This document shows, one piece after another, positions 2,800-16,243 of a DNA stretch of 64,000 bases (position 1 is the stretch's first letter; every line of letters begins with the position of its first letter). Under the pieces are notes generated by a model, which ran no database searches, was not told the DNA's origin, and worked only from the letters and a program-made list of their open reading frames with translations. Source of the stretch: Gemmatimonas phototrophica (GTDB taxonomy: Bacteria; Gemmatimonadota; Gemmatimonadetes; Gemmatimonadales; Gemmatimonadaceae); the NCBI GenBank assembly GCA_945869195.1, contig CAMBNV010000005.1:1-64000 (forward strand). Direction: 5' to 3'. The position numbers and the translations under genes are program-made.

Positions 2800-4500
2800 A
2801 CGCGAACGTTGCGTCGAAACAGCCCGTCGCGCAACGGAACGGTGACGGGCCGCTTGTACGGTGGGTGTATGCTCGGCGCTCCCGTGACTCGGAGCACCGA
2901 TGGCCGAGCCCGCGCCCGCGGCGCGTGGCGTCTACAAACCCCGACGGCCCCAAGCGTCGCCGCTCTTTCGGTTGGTGTCGGATCACCTGCACCGACTGCA
3001 GACGGTCTACGACGAGCGCTTCGCCCGCGAGTACGGCCCGTGGCGTCCGGTGGTCGGCGACGTGGCCGACAAGTTCCTCGCCTGCGGGGTGCTCGAGCAC
3101 GGGTTCGCCCGCATCCGCTGCGAAGCCTGCACGCACGAGTACCTGCTCGCGTTCTCCTGCAAGTGCCGCTACTTCTGCCCCAGTTGCCACGCCAAGCGCC
3201 TGGCCATCTGGACGCAGTGGCTGGACACCACGCTCCTCGCGCCCGTGCCGCACCGGCAAGTGGTGCTCACCATCCCCAAGCGGCTGCGCGCGTATTGTCT
3301 CTATCGGCGCCGCCTGCTCGGCGAGATCGCGCGTGTCGCCGCCCGCACCGTCACGGCCGCCATTCGCACGCTGACCGGCGAGCGCGACCTCGCGGTCGGT
3401 ATCGTGGCGTGTCTGCAGACGCATGGCTCGCGCGCCAACTGGCATCCGCACCTGCACCTCCTCGTCACCGACGGCGGGTTCCGGCTCGACGGGTCCTTCG
3501 TCTCGTGGCCGGCGCATGACACGGCCCGTTTGACGGAAGCGCTTCGCCGCGCCGTGCTCCGGCTCTTCGTGCGCTTGGCCCTCTTTGACGAGGACCAAGC
3601 CGCCGGGATGCTGACGTGGCCGCACTCGGGGTTCCATGTCCACACGGCCGTCTGGGTCCCCGAGGACGATCGCGCATTCGCGACCCGCCTCGCGCGCTAC
3701 TGCGCCCGCAATCCCGTCGCGCTGGAACGGCTCACCTACGACCGCGCCGCCAAGGCCGTGACCTATCGCTCCGATAAATCCGAGGGCCCGACGGCGGGGA
3801 CCGAAACCGCCGACCCGCTCGAGTTCCTCGCCCGGGTCCTCGTGCACATTCCGGACAAGGGCCACGTTACCACGCGGTACTACGGCTGGTACGCCAACCG
3901 CCCGCGCGGGATGCGGGTCAAGGCGGCGCTCGCCGCCATGGACGGGCCGCCGGCGATCGTTCGCGCACCACGCCTGGCGCCAAGCGAGGCCACCCGCCGG
4001 TGGGCGGCGCTCCTGCAGCAGATCTTCGAAGTCGACCCGCTCGCCTGTCCCACCTGCCACGGCGCGATGCGCATCGTCGCCTTCATCACGCAGACGTCGG
4101 TGATCGACCAGATCCTCGCGCATCTCCGCGCCCGCCTTGCGCCCGCGGCCCACACCGGCGCGCGGAGCCCCCCTTCGACGCGGGCCCCCGCGAGCCGGGG
4201 CACGGCCCGCGCCCCACGCCCGTTCGCTGCCGCCCCGACGACCCCATGAGGTCGCGCCCCCCCCCCCCGACGCCCCGCGGCCACGCGGGGACGTTCGGCG
4301 TGCGCGGTCGTCCCACGGGCGCGTCCGATTAGGCCCCGCCGGCCTCGGCCACCCCACGCTGACCGCCGCTCGTACGGCGCGCACGGCGCCCGTGCGAGAC
4401 GCAGGGCACACCGCCGCCCGTCCGCGGCGCTGGCGAGGTAAGGGATCGCGCCGTACGTTCGACGAGTAGTCGACCGACCCCGATTGAAATTCCTATCCCG
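2800..4500 (+). mobile_element. IS91-family insertion sequence, apparently full length
   Basis: Contains an intact Y2 transposase (2,900-4,249) and a right end shared with a second, truncated copy at 12,705-13,499. The last identical bases are TTCCTATCCCG, ending at 4,500 here and at 12,705 there, after which the flanks differ. This TTGAAATTCCTATCCC end resembles the origin ends of IS91/ISCR elements, which move by rolling-circle replication. The left end is not defined; it lies between the attC at 2,793 and the start codon, where a hairpin GCCCGTC...GACGGGC (2,822-2,850) may belong to it. Confidence 0.7.
2900..4249 (+). CDS. IS91-family Y2 transposase
   Basis: A 449-aa rolling-circle transposase. 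An N-terminal zinc ribbon is marked by C74-x2-C77, C87-x-C89 and C93-x2-C96 (FCPSCHAKRL). The HUH metal motif is HPHLHLL at about residues 182-188, and the tyrosine motif YYGWYANR lies at 327-334, with Y327 and Y331 the likely DNA-nicking pair of the Y2 class. A C-terminal CPTCHGAM motif ends the conserved part; the last 50 residues are Ala/Pro/Arg-rich. Length and motif order match functional family members, so the element could be active. It has inserted next to the attC at 2,700-2,793 and interrupts the integron array. Confidence 0.93.
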   Translation: MAEPAPAARGVYKPRRPQASPLFRLVSDHLHRLQTVYDERFAREYGPWRPVVGDVADKFLACGVLEHGFARIRCEACTHEYLLAFSCKCRYFCPSCHAKRLAIWTQWLDTTLLAPVPHRQVVLTIPKRLRAYCLYRRRLLGEIARVAARTVTAAIRTLTGERDLAVGIVACLQTHGSRANWHPHLHLLVTDGGFRLDGSFVSWPAHDTARLTEALRRAVLRLFVRLALFDEDQAAGMLTWPHSGFHVHTAVWVPEDDRAFATRLARYCARNPVALERLTYDRAAKAVTYRSDKSEGPTAGTETADPLEFLARVLVHIPDKGHVTTRYYGWYANRPRGMRVKAALAAMDGPPAIVRAPRLAPSEATRRWAALLQQIFEVDPLACPTCHGAMRIVAFITQTSVIDQILAHLRARLAPAAHTGARSPPSTRAPASRGTARAPRPFAAAPTTP

Positions 4501-5056: not shown

Positions 5057-8000
5057 TCATTGCAGAGGGGCGGGCGGCACGAAAGTACCATTTGTCAGAA
5101 GGTCGGTCACTTCGACATCGACCTTTTCAAGTAGCTCGTGCTGTCGTTCAATTCTGGAGATGACATCGAGGAGGTCCTGCGCGTTACTGTCTTTGAAGGT
5201 GCCGCGGAGGTACGCCGACGTGCGTTCGCGCAACCACTTGTCGATGACCGGATGTCCAGCGATTCGCGTCCCCATTACGCGGGCCGGCACGCCAGAGATG
5301 ATGACCGAATTCATATTCTCCCCGATCAACGTGAGAGCCAGCGACTCCTCTTGGTAGCTAAACTCGCGAAGGGAAATCTCCGTAACGCCGCTTGGCCACG
5401 CAGCAACTAATGACGGCAATAGTGTTACCGCAGTCTGAAAGTTCTCGTAACCCGCGAGCCTTTCGCCGAGCGCACAGAGACTTGCCCTGACGGTCTCGTC
5501 AAATGCAATAGGTATGCGAGGCGGGGCAGAGGGGTCGGAGGACGCGAACAAGACGCCCTCGAACGTCTCCAAATAGGCAGCGCTGCTCATGACCGCAAAT
5601 ACATAGTATAGAACACTCCGACTGGGGTTCGGCGCGAACGCGAATAGCGCCTCGACGTCAGCCGTTAGGTTGGAGCAAATGGCGTGAGACCCGTCTTTGG
5701 GGTTGGTCTTAGGATAGAGGTCACAGTACAACATTGCATTGCCGCGAGCAGCGATGTCATTGTCCGGAAGGTCCCACGCAAACGTGACGAAGCGTGTTAG
5801 GGTCTCACCTACGTCCTTTGGGGCTGGAGCCATCGCAATACCTACCGCGCCCTTGGCGAATGCTCTCCGCACCTCAGGCCTGGAACGCGTTCCACCGCCG
5901 GGAGCATCATTGAGGGCATTCCATACGCCATCGCTCTCTGCTAGCCACCCGCGCAAGAATGGCCGGAAGAGATAGGGCTTCCGAAGCGCCGCACTGCTCG
6001 CAACGACGCCAAGTGAAGCTCGCACAGCCGGCGTGAGCTTATTGGCATTCGGGCGCTTTTTTTGCCCAGAGAACCATTGATCGACCATTTCGTTGTTCGT
6101 GACGCCGGTCCCAGAAGCGATGGCTTTGCACCGGCGTTCAAGAAATGGCTCAGACGTGTGGAACAGCAGGGCCGCAGGTGCAGCCTTGATGCCGGAACAC
6201 TTTTCTGCAAAGATGCCAGAATGCGCCCCAGTCTTGGCTAGCGGCCAGCACTGCAGCCATTCTTTCGCTGGGTACGATTGGGCCGGTGCGAACAACCACG
6301 GTTCTTCGTCCACCGAAAGTGCCTGAAAGGCACCGGGGTCTGGCGAGGCCGCAAGGTAACTCTTCTTCTCCGCGACAGTTGAAGCCGCGATAGATAGATG
6401 AAATACCTTGGCGGCGACGCTCCCCGTGTGAGCGGCTGCTTGCGGCGTGATAGACGGGTGGCCACCAGCCAACACGGGTACCGCCGGCGCGCTCGCGGAT
6501 GTTGGGACCGCGCCCCCGTCATCTGACCTTAGGTCTGCTTCGCCAACTGGAGATGCAGCAGGAGAGGTGCCTCCTTTGCTGGAGCCGGACGGGGTCGCTC
6601 CCCTGAGGACAGCCAGCAGAACCATGCGACCCTGCTGGACCTGAAAGAGCGAGTGCGTCGCTCCACCGGCACGTGCATCCTCATCCAGTTCCAGTACGTA
6701 GACCGCTTGGAAATGCCTGGTAAGCCACCGTCTCGCGTATTTGAAGGACACCGCTTGCGCAAAGGCGCCAGGCAAAACTAGCGCAACGATTCCGCGACCA
6801 GAGTCCAGCACGCGCTGCGCACACCAACGGAGGAACCGAAATGCTTCGTTGTTAAGTGCCTTTTGAATATTCTGTCGGTCAGACAGTTCACGCACGGGCG
6901 GCCGAAAGTCAGCCAACTGTCTTTCGATCGTGAGCCGAGCGGCGTCGCCAACACGTCGAATCGAGGAAGGCGGGTTGCCGATGACAACGCGAAGAGGTGG
7001 CTGGGCCAGTGAACATGCCTCGCGGAGCTCGTCACTGAATCCGTCGGTGCCCAGCTCCGGTGTGCGCAGCAAGTTGTCCGCGAGGGTATCAGTCAGCAAT
7101 ACTCTGGTCCTGTTGGCATACACAGTCCCGTTCGTCGCGCCGGCGAGCCGGTAATGTGCCAAGGCGTATGGTGCAGGAAGCACTTCGAAGCCCACCAAGA
7201 GTGGGACATGGTCACCAGATGGAGTGCAGTGCCGGACCACGGATTCGAGGAAACCACCCGTCCCACAGCAGGGGTCGATAATTCTCTCTGCTAGCGTCGC
7301 CAGCTCATTTCCGAACTCTTGCACCGAGAGTGCGTTCGTAGTTCTGACCAGCCAATCCGTGAGTTCAATCGGCGTGAAGAAGACTCCCCTCTCGAAGCGG
7401 ACCTTAGGACTAAAGGCGACGAGAAACTGCTCGAACAACGCGTGGAAATCCTGCGGGCCGGGCTCCGTGCCCATGTACTCCGCATGCGCGAGCAGTCCAG
7501 TAACATCTGAATACCAGTCCCGCAACCACCCGTCCATGTCGAGACAGTCCCCGAGGAGGTCGGTGATGGCCTTGAATGGCCGGAGCGCCTCGGCCTCCTC
7601 GGAGTCGTCATCTGCCCAAAATGCTGAGATCTTCGCGCGGCGCGCCTCTGGATCTTCGCTTCCTTCGAGAAGCCGTGTGTGCACATAGAACAATCCAAAG
7701 GTCAAGACTTCTGCGATGAAGTCGGCACACTGGTCCGGGTGTCGAAGGGTCCGGTCGTGGTGTTCGCTAACCACACCCTGTAACTCATGCAGCGAGATGA
7801 TTAGGCGATCCTCCTCATTGGAGGACCCGCTACCCGCCGGAGCCTCCAGCAGGGGCCGTACCGCCCTCGCCAGCAGCCGCGCACGACGGGCGAGTTGTTC
7901 CACTAACTGTCGCTCCGTCCATTTGCGAAAGCCTGGATTCTCGAGCAGCCCCCGAAACAGAGTCTCGCTACCAACATCAACGGGAAGCGTGGCCCAGTCA

Positions 8001-8446
8001 CCTGCGCTCGGTAGCGGCTTGGGCACGAGCGAAGTACGAACTGGCGCGGAGCCGGGCCCCTCGTAGTACAAGAACTCGATACCATCGAAAACAAAAACCG
8101 GGCGACCCAGTTCTAAGTAGCGCTGGACCTGTGAGTCCTCCTTTGCCGACAGCGTCAAGGGCCCCGACTTGTCCAGGCTCTTGTGGTCGCCGAGGCAGAA
8201 TACTCCGAACGTCTTCCGGTCCTCCAAGCGCCAATCAGGTTTGCTCTCACGAGTGACATGCGTATCGTGATGAACCGCAATGTCGGCGCCGGGTTGCTTG
8301 AACATGTCCACCAGCGCGTCGACGAATCGATGCACCTGCGGACGCGTCGCCATCTCAATAGAAGTGGCGCCGGAGTCTTCGGCATCACGGCACGCACGCT
8401 GGAACTCGCGAAGATACGTTCTCACGAGTTTTTCGTAGGTCATCAT
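5057..8446 (-). CDS. Nuclease-methylase-like restriction protein (Type ISP/IIG-related, no helicase)
   Basis: A 1,129-aa protein. The N-terminus carries a PD-(D/E)xK-like nuclease signature (PD at 70-71, D87-H-K89 in GDHKS). A helical linker follows, then an N6-adenine-type methylase core: RGVFFTP near 353-359, SAM-binding DPCCGTGGF at 391-399, GFEVLPAPYALAHYRL at 419-434, and catalytic motif IV reading GNPPSS at 490-495. Type ISP enzymes normally have NPPY; here Ser replaces the aromatic residue, so adenine methylation may be impaired. The C-terminal 400 residues would be target recognition. Type ISP proteins also carry an SF2 helicase between nuclease and methylase; none is seen. The gene starts 1 bp after the 8,448-9,509 methyltransferase gene, in an operon with two cytosine methyltransferases. 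Probable role: restriction of foreign DNA. Confidence 0.8.
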   Translation of the reverse strand: MMTYEKLVRTYLREFQRACRDAEDSGATSIEMATRPQVHRFVDALVDMFKQPGADIAVHHDTHVTRESKPDWRLEDRKTFGVFCLGDHKSLDKSGPLTLSAKEDSQVQRYLELGRPVFVFDGIEFLYYEGPGSAPVRTSLVPKPLPSAGDWATLPVDVGSETLFRGLLENPGFRKWTERQLVEQLARRARLLARAVRPLLEAPAGSGSSNEEDRLIISLHELQGVVSEHHDRTLRHPDQCADFIAEVLTFGLFYVHTRLLEGSEDPEARRAKISAFWADDDSEEAEALRPFKAITDLLGDCLDMDGWLRDWYSDVTGLLAHAEYMGTEPGPQDFHALFEQFLVAFSPKVRFERGVFFTPIELTDWLVRTTNALSVQEFGNELATLAERIIDPCCGTGGFLESVVRHCTPSGDHVPLLVGFEVLPAPYALAHYRLAGATNGTVYANRTRVLLTDTLADNLLRTPELGTDGFSDELREACSLAQPPLRVVIGNPPSSIRRVGDAARLTIERQLADFRPPVRELSDRQNIQKALNNEAFRFLRWCAQRVLDSGRGIVALVLPGAFAQAVSFKYARRWLTRHFQAVYVLELDEDARAGGATHSLFQVQQGRMVLLAVLRGATPSGSSKGGTSPAASPVGEADLRSDDGGAVPTSASAPAVPVLAGGHPSITPQAAAHTGSVAAKVFHLSIAASTVAEKKSYLAASPDPGAFQALSVDEEPWLFAPAQSYPAKEWLQCWPLAKTGAHSGIFAEKCSGIKAAPAALLFHTSEPFLERRCKAIASGTGVTNNEMVDQWFSGQKKRPNANKLTPAVRASLGVVASSAALRKPYLFRPFLRGWLAESDGVWNALNDAPGGGTRSRPEVRRAFAKGAVGIAMAPAPKDVGETLTRFVTFAWDLPDNDIAARGNAMLYCDLYPKTNPKDGSHAICSNLTADVEALFAFAPNPSRSVLYYVFAVMSSAAYLETFEGVLFASSDPSAPPRIPIAFDETVRASLCALGERLAGYENFQTAVTLLPSLVAAWPSGVTEISLREFSYQEESLALTLIGENMNSVIISGVPARVMGTRIAGHPVIDKWLRERTSAYLRGTFKDSNAQDLLDVISRIERQHELLEKVDVEVTDLLTNGTFVPPAPLQ

Positions 8447-8447
8447 G

Positions 8448-9509
8448 CTATCTGCCCCGGGCGGTCAAGGCGTCGCGTACCGCTGTTCCGAGCGCGGCGG
8501 CGAAAACGGGCGGAACCGCGTTTCCGATCTGCCTGGCGATCTCGACCTTCGTGCCCACAAACCGATAGTCCGGGGGAAACGTTTGGAGCAACGCGCCTTC
8601 ATAGAGCGAGATCGTCCGCAACTGCTCGGGATGCCCGAACATCCCTCGCGTGAACGAATCAAAGCGCGCGGTGATCGTCGGGGCGACTTCGTCCCAACTC
8701 ATTCGACCATAGACGTTTCGATGACCGATTTGGTCCGCACTGAAGCGATGACACTCTGCCAGTAACTCCACCGGAAGGTGCTCCCGCCCCTGTCCGCCCT
8801 TGAGCGCGCGCAGCCGAGCCACATTCTTCTCTGTCAGTCGGTCAGCGCGGTGTCCGGGAAATGCCGGATGGTCTCCCCCAGCAGCAGGGGGAGGAGGGAG
8901 GTTCCCAATGACCTCACGTACACTTTGTGGCCGCGACGTGACCTTGCGTGGCCAAGCGAAGACGGTGTGCCCATCAGGAGCCAGCTCGCCAACGAGAATG
9001 TAGCGTCGACGCCGTTGGGGTACACCATACTCCTGGAAGTCCAAAACTAATTCGTGGCAGCAATACCCTTCATCACGCATTCGCTTCTTGAAGCGCTCGA
9101 GTACGGACCTTCCACGGCTTCCCCCGATCCCCGGCACATTCTCCAAGACAAAGAACGCAGGCAGGGCCTCGATAATCAGGTCACCATAATCGTCCACGAG
9201 CAAGTTGCGCTCGTCATTCTCGGCGCCGACCGTTCGCTGAATGCTAAATCCTTGGCAGGGCGGCCCTCCTGCCAAGAGGTCGAGTTGCCCCCTAATCAGT
9301 CCAGTGGTCGAGAGTAATCCCTCACGCAACACATCTCGCACGTCGGCGCACAACGAGGGATGGTCGAGATACTTCCGGTTTGCCTCTACGGTTGCAATAG
9401 CTGACTCGTCGAGGTCAAAAGCGAGAAGGATGTCGAATCCTGCCCTCTGCAGGCCAATAGAAAGGCCGCCCGCGCCACAAAAGGCATCAACGGCAGAGAA
9501 GCCGTTCAT
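8448..9509 (-). CDS. DNA (cytosine-5-)-methyltransferase
   Basis: A 353-aa m5C methyltransferase with all main motifs in order: motif I DAFCGAGGLSIGL (8-20), motif IV GGPPCQGFS with the catalytic Cys near residue 87, motif VI ENVPG, motif VIII YGVPQRRRRYILVG, a short target-recognition region, and motif X RQIGNAVPP. It methylates cytosine in a DNA site that cannot be read from sequence. Its ATG overlaps the stop of the upstream methyltransferase gene (ATGA at 9,506-9,509), so the two are translationally coupled, and the nuclease-methylase follows 1 bp later. It most likely protects host DNA from the co-encoded restriction protein. Confidence 0.95.
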   Translation of the reverse strand: MNGFSAVDAFCGAGGLSIGLQRAGFDILLAFDLDESAIATVEANRKYLDHPSLCADVRDVLREGLLSTTGLIRGQLDLLAGGPPCQGFSIQRTVGAENDERNLLVDDYGDLIIEALPAFFVLENVPGIGGSRGRSVLERFKKRMRDEGYCCHELVLDFQEYGVPQRRRRYILVGELAPDGHTVFAWPRKVTSRPQSVREVIGNLPPPPAAGGDHPAFPGHRADRLTEKNVARLRALKGGQGREHLPVELLAECHRFSADQIGHRNVYGRMSWDEVAPTITARFDSFTRGMFGHPEQLRTISLYEGALLQTFPPDYRFVGTKVEIARQIGNAVPPVFAAALGTAVRDALTARGR

Positions 9510-10753
9510 CTACGACTCATTTTCAAGCCCGCAATAACGCCAGCAAACGAGTTGTTGACTGGTGCAGCGACCAAGTCCTCTACGGGCATTTCTTCGGGAA
9601 CCTCTCCGCGCAAGCTCGCTAGAATGGATGACGCAACCGCAACGGACAGCAACGGTGGAACGGCCTCCCCGATCTGACGAAAGACATCGTCAGAAGTGCC
9701 CGCAAAAGAAAAACCGTCGGGAAAGCTCTGCAGCCGTGCCGCTTCCCGCATTGTAAGCCCACGATCTTGTTCAGGATGAATGAATCTTCCGCTGGCTGGA
9801 TTGCGTGCGTAATGCGTAATCGTTATCGCGGGGCGATCCCAGTACAACCGACCGTACACATCGGCAAACCCAGCGAAGTTCTGCAGGCATTTCGGACCAA
9901 CGCCGGCTGGGCGGCTTCCACCATTCTTCGGCACAGCTCTTATGACGTCCAAGGTAGATGCACGATGCGCTGCGCTCTTGTGAAGACTGTCCGTCTTGCA
10001 GGGCTTACCTGCTGTTACCACCGGGAGGTCGCCAATCGCATCCCGGACGGTTCGGAACTTCTGGTGAGGGAGCCTGGGAAAGGGGAGCAAGAAGGGGCGC
10101 TTCATCGCCACGACGAGGGAGCGAAACCTCTCCTGCGGGACTCCTTGCGCCGCGGCATTGTGCACCGCCTGCTTGACCACGTAGCCGACCCGTTCGAGGC
10201 TCTCGCGAAAGTACAGAAAGTGCGACCAGTACTTCGATGATAAGAGTTCCGGAACGTTTTCCATGACCACGCAATCAGGCTGCATCGAGACGGCGACTTT
10301 CGTGAACGCCTCGACGAGCCCGTTTCGCTCATCGACCTCGTCCCAGTTCTTCTTACGATGGGCTGAGAAACCCTGACAGGGGGCGCATCCGATCAGGACC
10401 GTCGGCCGGTCCGCTCGATAGTCGAGACGCCCAAGTAGTGCACTGCGTGCGCGCGAAGAACGCGCGAGTTCTCTTATATCGACCGCAATCGCGGGCACGG
10501 CGAAGTTGCGGCGATACGTCTCCAGCGAAGCTTCGTTGATGTCTACCGCACCCAATAGTTCAAACGCATTGAGGGAGTGCGCGAGCGCGGCGAAACCCAA
10601 AGACATGCCTCCGCAGCCAGAGAACATGTCAATCACTTGAACCTCACCACCGACACGAGGAACGGATAGCGGCTGCCAGCGCTCAAGGGAGCGCTGGCCT
10701 ACGCGGAAGTACTCATCTGCAGCTTGGTGACGGGGCGTCCGGGCAACGACCAT
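9506..10753 (-). CDS. DNA (cytosine-5-)-methyltransferase, first gene of the R-M operon
   Basis: A 415-aa m5C methyltransferase from the ATG at 10,753; a TTG at 10,828 would add 25 poorly conserved residues and neither start has a strong ribosome site. Motif I VQVIDMFSGCGGMSLGF lies at about 38-54, then motif IV GCAPCQGFS with the catalytic Cys, ENVPE (motif VI), GVPQERFRSLVVA (VIII) and RQIGEAVPP (X). It differs clearly from the second methyltransferase in the target-recognition region, so the two probably modify different sequences or different strands of an asymmetric site. It leads the three-gene minus-strand operon ending at 5,057. Confidence 0.92.
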   Translation of the reverse strand: MVVARTPRHQAADEYFRVGQRSLERWQPLSVPRVGGEVQVIDMFSGCGGMSLGFAALAHSLNAFELLGAVDINEASLETYRRNFAVPAIAVDIRELARSSRARSALLGRLDYRADRPTVLIGCAPCQGFSAHRKKNWDEVDERNGLVEAFTKVAVSMQPDCVVMENVPELLSSKYWSHFLYFRESLERVGYVVKQAVHNAAAQGVPQERFRSLVVAMKRPFLLPFPRLPHQKFRTVRDAIGDLPVVTAGKPCKTDSLHKSAAHRASTLDVIRAVPKNGGSRPAGVGPKCLQNFAGFADVYGRLYWDRPAITITHYARNPASGRFIHPEQDRGLTMREAARLQSFPDGFSFAGTSDDVFRQIGEAVPPLLSVAVASSILASLRGEVPEEMPVEDLVAAPVNNSFAGVIAGLKMSRR

Positions 10754-11180
10754 TCGTTCGGAAGGTGGGGCAGGCGTGGAATAGGTGGTCAATCCAGTGC
10801 TCGTTAGGCAGGTTCTGGGCTTTGACAAAACGGATACGGAGAATGTACGAAAAGTACGGAGGCCCTACGACATTTCAGGTTTATAGGCGAACAGCTGCAA
10901 CTTCGCTCTAGCACCCGAATATTCGGTCATGACTGCGGCAGGGCCACCGCGGTCTTTTGGAGTGACTGCTGGCCGTCGCCCGCCGCCAGCAGGTTGGTGG
11001 AGTTGCGGGCCGGTGCCCTTGGCGGAGACTCCAGTCTTATCGAGCACTGACCCGTATCATAAGAGTACCCGCAAGAGCGTGCTGCTTGTAGAGGTGCTGA
11101 ATCGTGCCGAGAGTGCCGGAGGCTCCACCCTCACGCCGCTACCGCCAACCGCACAATCTCTGCCCACCGGATCAGTCGCC
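10754..11180. other. Upstream region of the R-M operon with a remnant of a duplicated gene end
   Basis: No gene is supported. Near 10,846-10,860 a partial palindrome GTACGAAAAGTAC lies upstream of the methyltransferase start and could be an operator; no clear -35/-10 pair was found. At about 11,128-11,180 the minus strand reads IRWAEIVRLAVAA then stop, a diverged copy of the last codons of the CHAP-like gene (IRWAEMVRKAVAA at its 3' end near 11,388). This indicates a partial tandem duplication that left only the tail. Confidence 0.45.
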
Positions 11181-12704: not shown

Positions 12705-13499
12705 CGGGATAGGAATTTCGATCGGGGTCGGTCGAGTATACGGCGCGATCGCCGCCCCCGCGAGCGCCGCCAGACGGGCGGCGACGTGCTGGCTGACGCG
12801 ATCGCGCGCCTCGTGGGCCGTGCGACCGGCGGTTCCCGTGGGGGGTCGATGCCAACGGGGACCGATCTGACGTACCGTCGGGACTCCCGCTCACGCCACA
12901 GGTCCCCGCGTCGTCGCGGGGCGTCGGGGAGGGGCACTCATGGGGTAGTCGGGGCCTCGGTGGACGGGCGTGGGGCACGTGACGGGCCCCGGCTCGTGGG
13001 GGCTCGTGTCGATGGGGGGCTCCGTGCGCCGGTGTGGGCCGCGTGCGCCGCGCGGGTGCGGAGGTGCGTGAGGATCTGGTCGATCACCGAGGCCTGCGTG
13101 ATGAATGCGACGATGCGCATGACGCCGTGGCAGGCGGGACACGCGAGGGGGTCGACCTCGAAGATCTGCTGGAGCAGCGCCGCCCACCGGCGGCTGGCCT
13201 CGGTGGGCGCGAGTCGTGGTGCGGGGACGATGGCGGGCGGCCCGGCCGCGGCGGCGAGCGCCGCCTTCTCCCGCATGCCGCGGGGGCGGTTGGCATACCA
13301 GCCATAGTATCGCGTCGTGACGTGCCCTTTGTCGGGGATATGGACCAGCACCCGGGCCAGGAACTCCAGCGGGTCCACGGTCTCGGTGCCGGCCGTCGGA
13401 CCGTCCGACTTGTCGGATCGGTACGTCACGGCCTTCGAGGCGCGGTCGTAGGTGAGCCGCTCCAGCGCGACCGGATTCCGCGCGCAGTACCGGGCGAGA
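12705..13499 (-). mobile_element. Truncated IS91-family copy (3' part only)
   Basis: Homologous to the element at 2.8-4.5 kb but inverted and lacking its 5' two thirds. The right end ...GAAATTCCTATCCCG ends at 12,705, abutting the FecR-like gene. Similarity to copy 1 begins abruptly near 13,499 (CTCGCCCGGTACTGCGCG), where it joins an unrelated membrane-protein gene. The fragment keeps about 190 transposase codons. Copy 1 has about ten extra bases near GACGAGTAG before the right end, so the copies are not recent duplicates. Confidence 0.85.
12938..13499 (-). pseudogene. IS91-family transposase, 5'-truncated
   Basis: Retains the C-terminal ~185 residues, beginning LARYCARNPVALERL and running through RYYGWYANRPRGM to a CPACHGVM zinc motif, nearly parallel to the intact transposase at 2,900-4,249. 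The zinc ribbon and HUH motif are absent, so it cannot catalyse transposition. The reading frame continues upstream into unrelated sequence and gives a false longer ORF to 14,053. Confidence 0.85.
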
Positions 13500-14136
13500 A
13501 CAGCGCGACGGTGCGCAGACGGCGGGCGTCGCCTCCCCGCGTGGCACGGACCCAGAGCGGTGGCAAGGCAAAAAGCAGCGCCAGCCCCACCGACGACAGG
13601 TGCGTCAGCACGGTGGCGGCAAACAGCGCGGCGGCCAGCGCGAACCGGGCGCGACGACCCCGTCCAGCCGGCGAGTCGAGTGCCGCTCCGAGCGTCGCGA
13701 CAAACGCAAGCGCGAGCGTCAGGCCCACGCCCTGCTTCGCGACGGTGATCAGATAGAAACTCCCCGCTGCGGTCGCGACCAACGCGGCGCCTGCCACGCC
13801 CGCCGCGCGTTCGCCGGTCGCGCGGCGGACGATCGCGTAGACCGGCACGGCGGCGAGCGCGGTGGCGAGCGCGGCGCCGAGCTTGGCGCCCGCGATCGGG
13901 CCGAACGCCCACGCCCCTGGCAGCATGAGCCAGAATGCCATGGGCGACGCCGGGTAATAGAGGTGGTGATCGCGTAGCAGCGATCGCAGCTGGACGGCAT
14001 AGTAGAACCCGTCGATGCCGAGGGGGTAGGGGGATGACTCGAGGAATCGCCACCGCGCGACGAAGGCGACAGCCACGATCGCGGCGACCGCCAGCACCGC
14101 GAATAACGGAGCCAGTCGGTCCAGCTGCGCACGCAT
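13426..14136 (-). pseudogene. Multi-pass membrane protein (GT-C glycosyltransferase-like), 3'-truncated by IS91
   Basis: The ATG at 14,136 starts a protein of about 210 genuine residues. It opens with a hydrophobic helix, then the loop GIDGFYYAVQLRSLLRDHHL and several further membrane segments separated by arginine-rich loops. A first-loop acidic residue in PYPLGIDGFYY is reminiscent of GT-C fold lipid-linked sugar transferases, a tentative resemblance. Near 13,500 the frame runs into the IS91 fragment and ends out of frame at 13,426, so the C-terminal half is lost. The start lies 25 bp beyond the half attC at 14,161, so the gene may have been joined there by rearrangement. Confidence 0.6.
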
Positions 14137-14160
14137 TGTGGTCACGTGAGAAGGATCGCT

Positions 14161-14167
14161 GTTAGAC
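14161..14167 (-). other. Candidate attC R'' box after the toxin-antitoxin cassette
   Basis: GTCTAAC on the minus strand matches RYYYAAC exactly, lies 10 bp after the toxin stop codon, and is the exact complement of GTTAGAC at 14,748-14,742, the proposed start of the same cassette. No matching L'/R' half was found downstream before the membrane-protein gene, so the attC seems to have been cut by rearrangement. Confidence 0.45.
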
Positions 14168-14177
14168 AGCTGCGGGT

Positions 14178-14474
14178 TCACGCGCGCCGACGCCAGCGGC
14201 GCGGATTGCGGACCTGGCCGAGGCAGCCGCGGATCTCAACACGTCCGTCGAGTTTTCGATAATAAATCGCGTACGGAAACTTGGTCATCAAGAGGCGACG
14301 AAGACCGCGGTGCACGTCCGGCCCCGCCTCGGGCATAAACTGCACCAGTTCGAACGTCCGATCGAGGGCGTCAAGGAACTCGTCGCCGAGACCAATCCGT
14401 TGCGTCTCGTACCATTTGAACGCATTGCTGATGTCGGTTCTCGCTCGCGCAGTGAAGGCGAGCGCGGAGCTCAT
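14178..14474 (-). CDS. RelE/ParE-family toxin
   Basis: A 98-aa protein; the ATG at 14,474 overlaps the antitoxin stop by 4 bp (ATGA). The profile is that of the RelE/ParE toxin superfamily: LAFTARARTDISNAFKWYE, then GLGDEFLDALDRTFELV, then FPYAIYYRKLDGRVEIRG and a closing NPRRWRRR. Toxins of this group are stabilised by their cognate antitoxin and act on ribosome-bound mRNA or DNA gyrase; sequence alone does not say which. It sits directly downstream of the antitoxin and appears to be part of the first integron cassette, where such pairs are thought to stabilise arrays. Confidence 0.88.
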   Translation of the reverse strand: MSSALAFTARARTDISNAFKWYETQRIGLGDEFLDALDRTFELVQFMPEAGPDVHRGLRRLLMTKFPYAIYYRKLDGRVEIRGCLGQVRNPRRWRRRA

Positions 14475-14692
14475 GGCTTCGGACGCCCCAAGTGCGCGCG
14501 CACGTCTTCCCAAGAGAGCGTGGCTTGTTCAGTGGGATCGTCGAGGCGCTGGTCCAACTCCTCGCGATGCCACTCGGGCACACCGACAACATCGGGCGAC
14601 GCGGCGAGGCTATCCCAGACATCCTCAACGAGCCGCAGCCGGTCGGCCGGCGGCAATCGGAGAATTTCGTCTAAGAGCGCGTTGGGCGTCAT
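14471..14692 (-). CDS. Addiction-module antitoxin (TIGR02574-like)
   Basis: A 73-aa protein matching the small putative addiction-module component family: an N-terminal LLDEILRLPPADRLRLVEDVW block, then DSLAASPDVVGVPEWHREEL and a variable C-terminus. Such antitoxins bind the RelE/ParE toxin encoded immediately after and often repress the operon. The start codon is 55 bp from the proposed cassette boundary at 14,747, comparable to the 45 bp seen in the well-defined cassette at 2,097-2,706. Confidence 0.88.
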   Translation of the reverse strand: MTPNALLDEILRLPPADRLRLVEDVWDSLAASPDVVGVPEWHREELDQRLDDPTEQATLSWEDVRAHLGRPKP

Positions 14693-14741
14693 GACTCAAA
14701 CTCGCAGGATTTGGCCGGGAGAACAAGGCCGGCTCGTGTAA

Positions 14742-14806
14742 GTCTAACGTGGATTAGCTTGACCTGCCTATTCCATTGTTCCCTGATTAGACAGGTCTGC
14801 ATAATC
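14742..14806 (-). other. Candidate attI or first recombination site of the integron
   Basis: The minus strand ends with GTTAGAC (14,748-14,742), a perfect GTTRRRY core, immediately before the toxin-antitoxin unit. Upstream is an imperfect hairpin with arms GATTA..GACCTG at 14,752-14,766 and CAGGTC..TAATC at 14,792-14,806. Proximity to intI suggests attI. The hairpin is also compatible with a degenerate attC, so the class is unsettled. Confidence 0.4.
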
Positions 14807-15253
14807 AGCGACAGAAAGCTTGGATGCGGACGAGCCCCTCGCAAGTACCTCGCGTGCCAACGTCTAGCCGCCGGGCGCTCAGCTAACCCTTTAGTACGTG
14901 GCGCGCAGGCTGTGCCACTCGCCTCGCAAGCTGTTGCACTCGCCTCGCAGGTTGTTGCTCCTGCCCTCGCGCTCAGTGCTCCCTCTCCCCGATCGTCGAC
15001 TCCCGATGTGCCGGCTGATCGAGCCCCCGCCCTATACAACTGTTTTGAGGGGCGATACCTATAAATGCCAGATTGGCGGTGCGGATTTGGCAGTCGGCTT
15101 TATAGAAAAAGATCCGCCGCGCGACTACGCTAAGCGCGCTGCGCCAAATCGAGCGCGCGCTGCGACGATGGACCGACCTGCTAGCGAACGAAGCCTGTCT
15201 CTGGACCCTCGTCCCGCCCCCCTGCAGTCCCCCGCGCCCGCCACCAGCGCCCA
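14807..15253. other. Leader between integrase and first cassette, no gene
   Basis: Holds a 21-bp tandem repeat in two near-identical copies (14,916-14,936 and 14,937-14,957, each starting CACTCGCCTCGCA) plus a decayed third start at 14,958. An AT-rich patch at about 15,040-15,115 contains minus-strand TATAAA (15,104-15,099) and could hold the cassette promoter, but no convincing -35 was found. No open frame with coding character was seen. Confidence 0.45.
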
Positions 15254-16243
15254 CTACACCGGCCTCCGACGCGACGGTAGCCCGTCCAGCGGACTCCGCA
15301 CCCCCAACCCCCCGCGGTTCAGCACGTGAGTGTAGATCATCGTCGTACTCACGTCGCGGTGCCCCAACAGCTCCTGCACCGTCCGGATGTCATAGCCCGC
15401 CTCCAAAAGGTGCGTCGCGAAACTGTGCCTGAAGGTGTGGCACGTCGCGCGCTGACTGAGGCCCGCCGAGCGCGCACCCGCGGTCACCGCGGCCTGCACC
15501 ACCGTCTCGTGAAGATGATGACGCCGCCGTTCCCCGGTCTCCGGGTCGCGGTACTCGCGCGTCGCGGCAAAGACCCACTGCCACTCCCATCGACGACCGG
15601 ACTGCCCACCGAGCTTCACGCGCATCGCATCCGGCAGCGCTACGTACCCAGCGCCGCGCCGCACGTCGAGGTCGTGCTGTGCCTGGCGCGCACTCAAGTG
15701 GATCCTCATGTCCGCGACGATGCTCTCCGGTATCATCGTGCGCCGGTCGCGCCCACCCTTGCCGTGCCGCACCGTGAGCTCGCCGCGGTCGAGGTCGAGG
15801 TCCTTCACGCGGAGTGTGCAACACTCCATCACACGCAGGCCGCTACCGTACAGGATCCGAGCCATCAGTTGCGATACGCCGTTCATCCGCTCGATCACTC
15901 GACGCACATCGTCGGCGCTCAGCACCGTCGGCAGGCGAGCCGCACGCTTCGCGACGAGATGGTCCGTCGGCGCGGCCATCGGCCGCTCGAGCACCACCTC
16001 ATAGAGGAACCGGAGCGCGGCGAGCGCCTGGTTCTGCGTGCTCGCACTCACCTTCCGGTCGCGCGCCAGGTGCGTGAGGAAGTCACGCACCTCCGCGAGG
16101 TCCATCGCGCGCGGATGCCGGCGGCCATGGTAGCCGATGAACCGGCGTACCCAGTGCTCGTATGCCTCGAGCGTGCGCGGGCTGTAGTGCTTCGCCGCGA
16201 GCCGGTCCCGCAGGACCTGCAGCAGCGTGGGAGGAGTGGCCAT
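15254..16243 (-). CDS. intI: Integron integrase IntI
   Basis: A 329-aa tyrosine recombinase. Catalytic residues are R137 (GSGLRVMEC), K162 (GKGGRDR), H269 and R272 (HTFRHSF), H295 (LLGHRDV) and nucleophile Y304 (MIYTHV). The integron-specific insert absent from XerC/XerD is present at about 198-245: YVALPDAM, then RRWEWQWVFAA and GERRRHHLHETVVQ. The protein ends LNRGGLGVRSPLDGL, the standard IntI tail. It excises and inserts gene cassettes at attI/attC. Cassettes lie beyond its 3' end in the same orientation, whereas in class 1 and Vibrio integrons intI points away from the array. Only 53 bp separate it from the upstream esterase gene on the same strand. Confidence 0.95.
   Translation of the reverse strand: MATPPTLLQVLRDRLAAKHYSPRTLEAYEHWVRRFIGYHGRRHPRAMDLAEVRDFLTHLARDRKVSASTQNQALAALRFLYEVVLERPMAAPTDHLVAKRAARLPTVLSADDVRRVIERMNGVSQLMARILYGSGLRVMECCTLRVKDLDLDRGELTVRHGKGGRDRRTMIPESIVADMRIHLSARQAQHDLDVRRGAGYVALPDAMRVKLGGQSGRRWEWQWVFAATREYRDPETGERRRHHLHETVVQAAVTAGARSAGLSQRATCHTFRHSFATHLLEAGYDIRTVQELLGHRDVSTTMIYTHVLNRGGLGVRSPLDGLPSRRRPV

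Follow-up and report, generated by a model that had tools for sequence, protein, structure and literature searches.

Type IIG restriction enzymes hold both cutting and protection in one chain, with SAM feeding both activities, an arrangement that the authors of the BpuSI work described as a "paradox." The window analyzed here, a stretch of 64,000 nucleotides from a Gemmatimonas phototrophica contig (CAMBNV010000005.1, positions 1 to 64,000), raises the question of whether these roles can come apart, as it encodes a large restriction protein with a methylase domain of its own directly behind two cytosine-5 (m5C) methyltransferase genes. Does the large protein still methylate DNA, and if it does not, what would protect the host from the nuclease within the same chain?

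Two m5C methyltransferase genes and a large restriction gene form one operon

The three genes lie on the minus strand of the window in the order A, B, R and make up one operon, just as the initial annotation had described. Gene A (positions 9506 to 10753) encodes an m5C methyltransferase of ~415 aa when read from the ATG at 10753; its frame is open up to a TTG at 10828, and its homologues start near the ATG at 10753. Gene B (8448 to 9509), which overlaps A by 4 nt, encodes a second m5C methyltransferase of 353 aa, and after a spacing of 1 nt it is followed by the gene for protein R (5057 to 8446), a Type IIG/IIL-like single chain of 1,129 aa, as judged from its N6_Mtase and Type_ISP_C domains and from a structure model. 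A and B were indeed two distinct cytosine-5 methyltransferases: both matched PF00145 in Pfam, with E values on the scale of 1e-51 to 1e-54 (2.5e-51 for A and 8.4e-54 for B), and the PCQ and ENV motifs are intact in both. NCBIfam and PADLOC gave concordant assignments, with A and B called as dcm-type and R matching Type IIG REase-MTase models. The gene for R thus sits beside two adjacent, intact m5C methylase genes, as in the two-m5C systems HgaI and LlaJI, and our Pfam searches found neither an AAA nor a McrC domain in R or in the scanned neighboring ORFs.

Protein R is built like a Type IIG/IIL enzyme

Protein R runs from a PD-(D/E)xK nuclease through a helical connector and a gamma-class N6-methylase core to a Type_ISP_C recognition domain. 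The N-terminus that the initial annotation had called PD-(D/E)xK-like contains a canonical active site, D71-x15-D87-x-K89 (8180 to 8236, minus strand), whose residues, in the aligned homologues from other trios, either do not vary or show a conservative D/E exchange. Specifically, D71, D87, and K89 of the PD-x-x15-DxK pattern are invariant in the chromosomal homologues, the viral ones carry D-ExK, and PD-x-x15-[D/E]xK is retained across all aligned trios. The N6-type core, placed by Pfam at residues 334 to 497, retains motif I of the SAM site as DPCCGTG (residues 391 to 397; 7256 to 7276, minus strand), a sequence that is identical in six trios and reads EPCMGTG in E. coli A41. Its motif IV is NPPSS (residues 491 to 495; 6962 to 6976, minus strand), with Ser standing in for an aromatic residue in our alignment of trio and solo proteins. 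The C-terminal specificity domain, Type_ISP_C, occupies residues 745 to 1107 (5126 to 6214, minus strand; PF18135, E 9.8e-15).

The Type ISP enzymes LlaGI and LlaBIII resemble R in their coupler, gamma-class methylase, and Type_ISP_C recognition domain, all of which can be aligned, but they possess an SF2 helicase and read NPPYS at motif IV where R has NPPSS. In Type ISP enzymes, this SF2 helicase-like ATPase is described as lying between the nuclease and the coupler (PMC4666363). In R, we found no helicase family at E<=0.1 in Pfam, the interval from nuclease to methylase is only ~160 aa, and the chain fits that of the helicase-less enzyme DrdV. A hidden helicase was therefore ruled out by Pfam, chain length, and fold.

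We compared R with known structures using an AlphaFold model that drew on 39 relatives (mean pLDDT 84.6), which replaced a poor earlier model from five sequences (pLDDT 57). The best Protein Data Bank sequence matches of R were DrdV, LlaBIII, and LlaGI, and the best whole-length structural match of the model was DrdV (904 residues aligned between positions 4 and 1117; Z 32.9), where an rmsd of 18 suggests that the domains may be placed differently in the two proteins. Alignment with LlaBIII and LlaGI covered residues 173 to 1122, starting at the coupler and running through to the end (Z 32 to 33, rmsd 4.6 to 5.0), and structural similarity to BpuSI was lower (Z 19.3). From the alignment of the model with DrdV, LlaBIII, and LlaGI, we conclude that R is built like a Type IIG/IIL enzyme. 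DrdV and other members of this group, including MmeI and the plasmid-borne solo "type ISP" proteins, likewise combine a nuclease, a connector, a gamma-class methylase, and a recognition domain in a single helicase-less chain, although they keep the aromatic residue after NPP, and the solo relatives come without companion m5C pairs. Since this is ordinary Type IIG/IIL architecture, as seen in DrdV, there is nothing new as such in a Type ISP-like chain that lacks a helicase; the initial annotation was right in its core but overstated the architectural novelty.

The same trio recurs in distant genomes and viral contigs

The idea that the layout might be peculiar to this genome did not survive our searches, which recovered homologous trios elsewhere. 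The order A-B-R was found in six further loci, in Shewanella chilikensis (L002), in E. coli A41 (L003), and on four viral contigs (L022, L023, L024, and L084), and the R proteins of these loci are 31 to 46% identical to that of the window. In Shewanella chilikensis, the same two m5C genes precede the gene for R, whose product is 44% identical to the window protein. Gene A of the window is 51 to 64% identical to gene A of the six other trios, in which PCQ and ENV are intact, and gene B is 55 to 63% identical to its counterparts. We thus observed the three genes to be co-inherited at seven loci. The R gene of L022 (5001 to 8224) is interrupted, as its frame breaks off after 905 aa and a C-terminal remnant is encoded in an ORF that follows.

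The trio is nonetheless rare. It occurred in one of 5,426 complete E. coli genomes, and apart from the trios already named, we found none in 395 genomes of the window's own phylum, in 395 Shewanella-order genomes, or in 398 Pseudomonadota genomes. Searches with gene A among 60 near relatives, and searches of plasmids and phage records, also yielded no further trio, and the last viral scan returned the same four viral trios again.

Motif IV has lost its aromatic residue in every trio

In gamma-class enzymes such as M.TaqI, the aromatic residue of motif IV stacks on the flipped adenine, and because this residue is gone, R very probably no longer methylates. The NPPSS motif that had been pointed out in the window is one instance of a wider pattern: motif IV reads NPP[S/C][S/T] in all seven trios, five of which have Ser and two Cys after NPP, whereas Tyr occupies this position in 40 of the 41 aligned solo relatives and His in the other. 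The solo relatives also differ in their surroundings, as two adjacent m5C genes were found at none of the ~50 solo loci scanned, and a single m5C gene lay near the solo R relative at only one of them (L080). Six other loci show both the trio and the missing aromatic residue, so neither is a product of chance.

These seven loci should not be counted as independent cases. The seven trio R proteins form one clade with a support of 1.0 and a long stem, and the aromatic residue was therefore lost in one event and not in seven. The association of the Ser/Cys change with the m5C pair rests on that one evolutionary event, with all seven loci stemming from one ancestor. Separately, a solo enzyme on a Streptomyces plasmid (L020, 4266 to 7757) carries NPPH at motif IV without m5C neighbors, possibly through a loss of the aromatic residue independent of that in the trios.

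The loss could be part of a general decay of the methylase domain. However, this domain is among the best-conserved parts of R, with 38 to 52% identity to the window R among the trio proteins compared to 23 to 46% for the nuclease, and motif I and the Asn of NPP are kept, which argues against simple decay. The same conservation is compatible with a different hypothesis, in which R still methylates, either because the enzyme can work with Ser or Cys at this position or because a different aromatic side chain does the stacking, with the m5C pair acting as a second layer of protection. BpuSI, which retains a weak methylase beside two companions, offers a precedent for such an arrangement. Yet the gamma class is described by NPPY/F/W (PMC4081073), and an aromatic residue that is absent from 7 of 7 trio homologues was kept as Tyr in nearly all relatives; we consider continued methylation by R improbable. 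As judged from the motif, the non-aromatic motif IV would instead abolish methyl transfer by R.

Related m5C pairs accompany McrBC-type genes

If R does not modify its own site, the protective role would fall to A and B. Across the trios, A and B form separate, well-supported clades that are ~32% identical to each other, and related pairs are also found without R. Three such pairs, 40 to 49% identical to A and B, lie on viral contigs with McrB-like AAA and/or McrC-like genes (L085, 5059 to 10192; L086, 6953 to 11064; L087, 1 to 5498), and a fourth locus (L090) has an A+B pair with no identified cutter. The L085 to L087 loci and LlaJI thus resemble the trio in combining two m5C genes with nuclease genes, but they have a McrBC-type GTPase/nuclease in the place of R. 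That related m5C pairs are common to Type IIG-like and McrBC-like cutters suggests a modular assembly of restriction systems. No R homologue was found beside plasmid m5C relatives of A or B (33 to 42% identical) in the seven regions that we inspected. LlaJI as the direct source of A and B, which the L085 to L087 loci had suggested, was ruled out, as the M1 and M2 enzymes of pNP40 are only ~23 to 26% identical to them, and the likeness to LlaJI is therefore one of analogy and not of shared recent origin.

Such pairs lie beside genes of the McrBC-type family, some of whose members are modification-dependent. One could therefore suppose that R is likewise a nuclease that depends on modification and cuts DNA carrying m5C, or that it belongs to a conflict system, and is not a partner of A and B at all. 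With two m5C methylases in the same operon, however, such a nuclease would find the host's own DNA exposed to it, and R has the architecture of Type IIG enzymes, which are blocked by modification. Even in LlaJI, the McrBC-type nucleases work alongside m5C companions whose role is to protect the host (PMC1459862), and this explanation therefore strikes us as highly implausible.

Alternatively, only one of A and B may protect against R, while the other acts in regulation or on a target of its own. The two are old paralogues, and one-strand modification is sufficient in the case of MmeI (PMC3817140); moreover, the LlaJI operon is cited as being governed by promoter methylation through M1 and M2.LlaJI (PMC11779793). 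Against this possibility, A and B are adjacent not only in the seven trios but also in the four further pair loci, and no conserved 6- to 7-mer operator is shared upstream of A. We regard a single protective methylase as unlikely, although less so than the two alternatives above.

A cutter that may have handed protection to its neighbors

Our preferred hypothesis, which we hold to be probable, is that R is a Type IIG-derived cutter without self-modification, whose methylase fold serves recognition and SAM-gated cleavage, with A and B protecting the host. R would descend from single-chain Type IIG/IIL enzymes with the same series of nuclease, connector, gamma-class methylase, and recognition domain, and the ancestor of the clade would have lost the motif IV aromatic. 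The preserved methylase fold and SAM pocket would then bind the site and switch the nuclease on, with A and B taking over host protection through C5-cytosine methylation within R's site. The suggestion in the initial annotation that the methylase domain serves recognition or allostery instead of modification gains support from its conservation in seven loci.

How A and B might divide this task is suggested by HgaI, in which an asymmetric site is modified on one strand by the first of two m5C methylases and on the other strand by the second (PMC12376442). HgaI and RM.MhoVI both resemble the trio in having two m5C methylases, and the one-per-strand division known for them would probably apply to A and B on a non-palindromic site, although A and B might serve different sites. 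These systems are likened to the trio by description, and in the trio the cutter is a Type IIG-like chain. A role of the trio in phage defense is likewise something that we infer.

Besides HgaI and LlaJI with their two m5C companions, BpuSI and BspLU11III come close to the division of labor proposed here, as they also combine a Type IIG cutter with two companion methylases and do not use the built-in methylase as main protector (PMC3817140). In BpuSI, that built-in methylase is weak, and m6A and m5C companions protect the host; an Asn mutant of its NPPY motif lost both SAM binding and cleavage, which indicates that the methylase fold is needed for cutting (PMC3817140). Unlike the trio, BpuSI and BspLU11III have NPPY with a weakly active built-in methylase, and have one m6A and one m5C companion. 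By analogy, the trio looks like a next step on the BpuSI path, with the Asn kept, the aromatic gone, and both companions m5C. More broadly, we lean slightly toward a Type IIG lineage in which the methylase site was permanently switched off after the capture of a transferable m5C pair, leaving a SAM-gated nuclease whose fold only reads the site, with A and B as an exchangeable protection module of which McrBC-type nucleases also make use.

The claim of a novel layout consequently holds in part. Type IIG enzymes with companion methylases were already known from BpuSI, but we found no description of this exact layout in open-access papers, and judged by these, a conserved, horizontally spread trio whose cutter is accompanied by two m5C methylases and in every case has a non-aromatic motif IV appears to be new. 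If transfer has been lost, as it appears, while the SAM fold was kept, this natural clade would set the two roles of the chain apart and make them testable without engineered mutants. There is also a consequence for annotation. Of the Type IIC/IIG traits, R has an N-terminal PD-(D/E)xK nuclease joined to a gamma-class methylase and lacks NPPY/F/W, and databases label it a Type ISP or Type IIG restriction-methylase, although R is helicase-less and is predicted not to methylate. In E. coli, the genes are labeled one by one as "type ISP restriction/modification enzyme" and "DNA cytosine methyltransferase."

The trio is found among mobile elements

In the window, the trio is contained in a segment of ~8 kb bracketed by inverted IS91-like genes. 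The left transposase gene (2900 to 4249, plus strand; PF04986 and PF14319) belongs to an element with thirteen full or partial matches in the genome, and the right one (12705 to 13498 / 12705 to 14053, minus strand) is an inverted partial copy that is 80 to 84% identical to the left. The trio also has a lower G+C content, 58 to 60% compared to ~65 to 67%. Together with the patchy distribution, the lower G+C and the inverted IS91-like copies on both sides point to horizontal acquisition, and we conclude that the trio is a rare, mobile three-gene restriction-modification system.

The other loci have varied flanks. The Shewanella chilikensis trio adjoins an integrase and tmRNA, that of E. coli A41 is surrounded by IS66 and broken genes, and the trio on L024 is probably in a phage, given a terminase gene on the same contig. 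On L023, a tRNA-Leu gene (39 to 125) lies ~2.3 kb upstream of the trio and is a possible integration site. On L084, the trio is followed by a gene for an OLD-like TOPRIM ATPase-nuclease (13559 to 15256), which suggests a cluster of defense genes.
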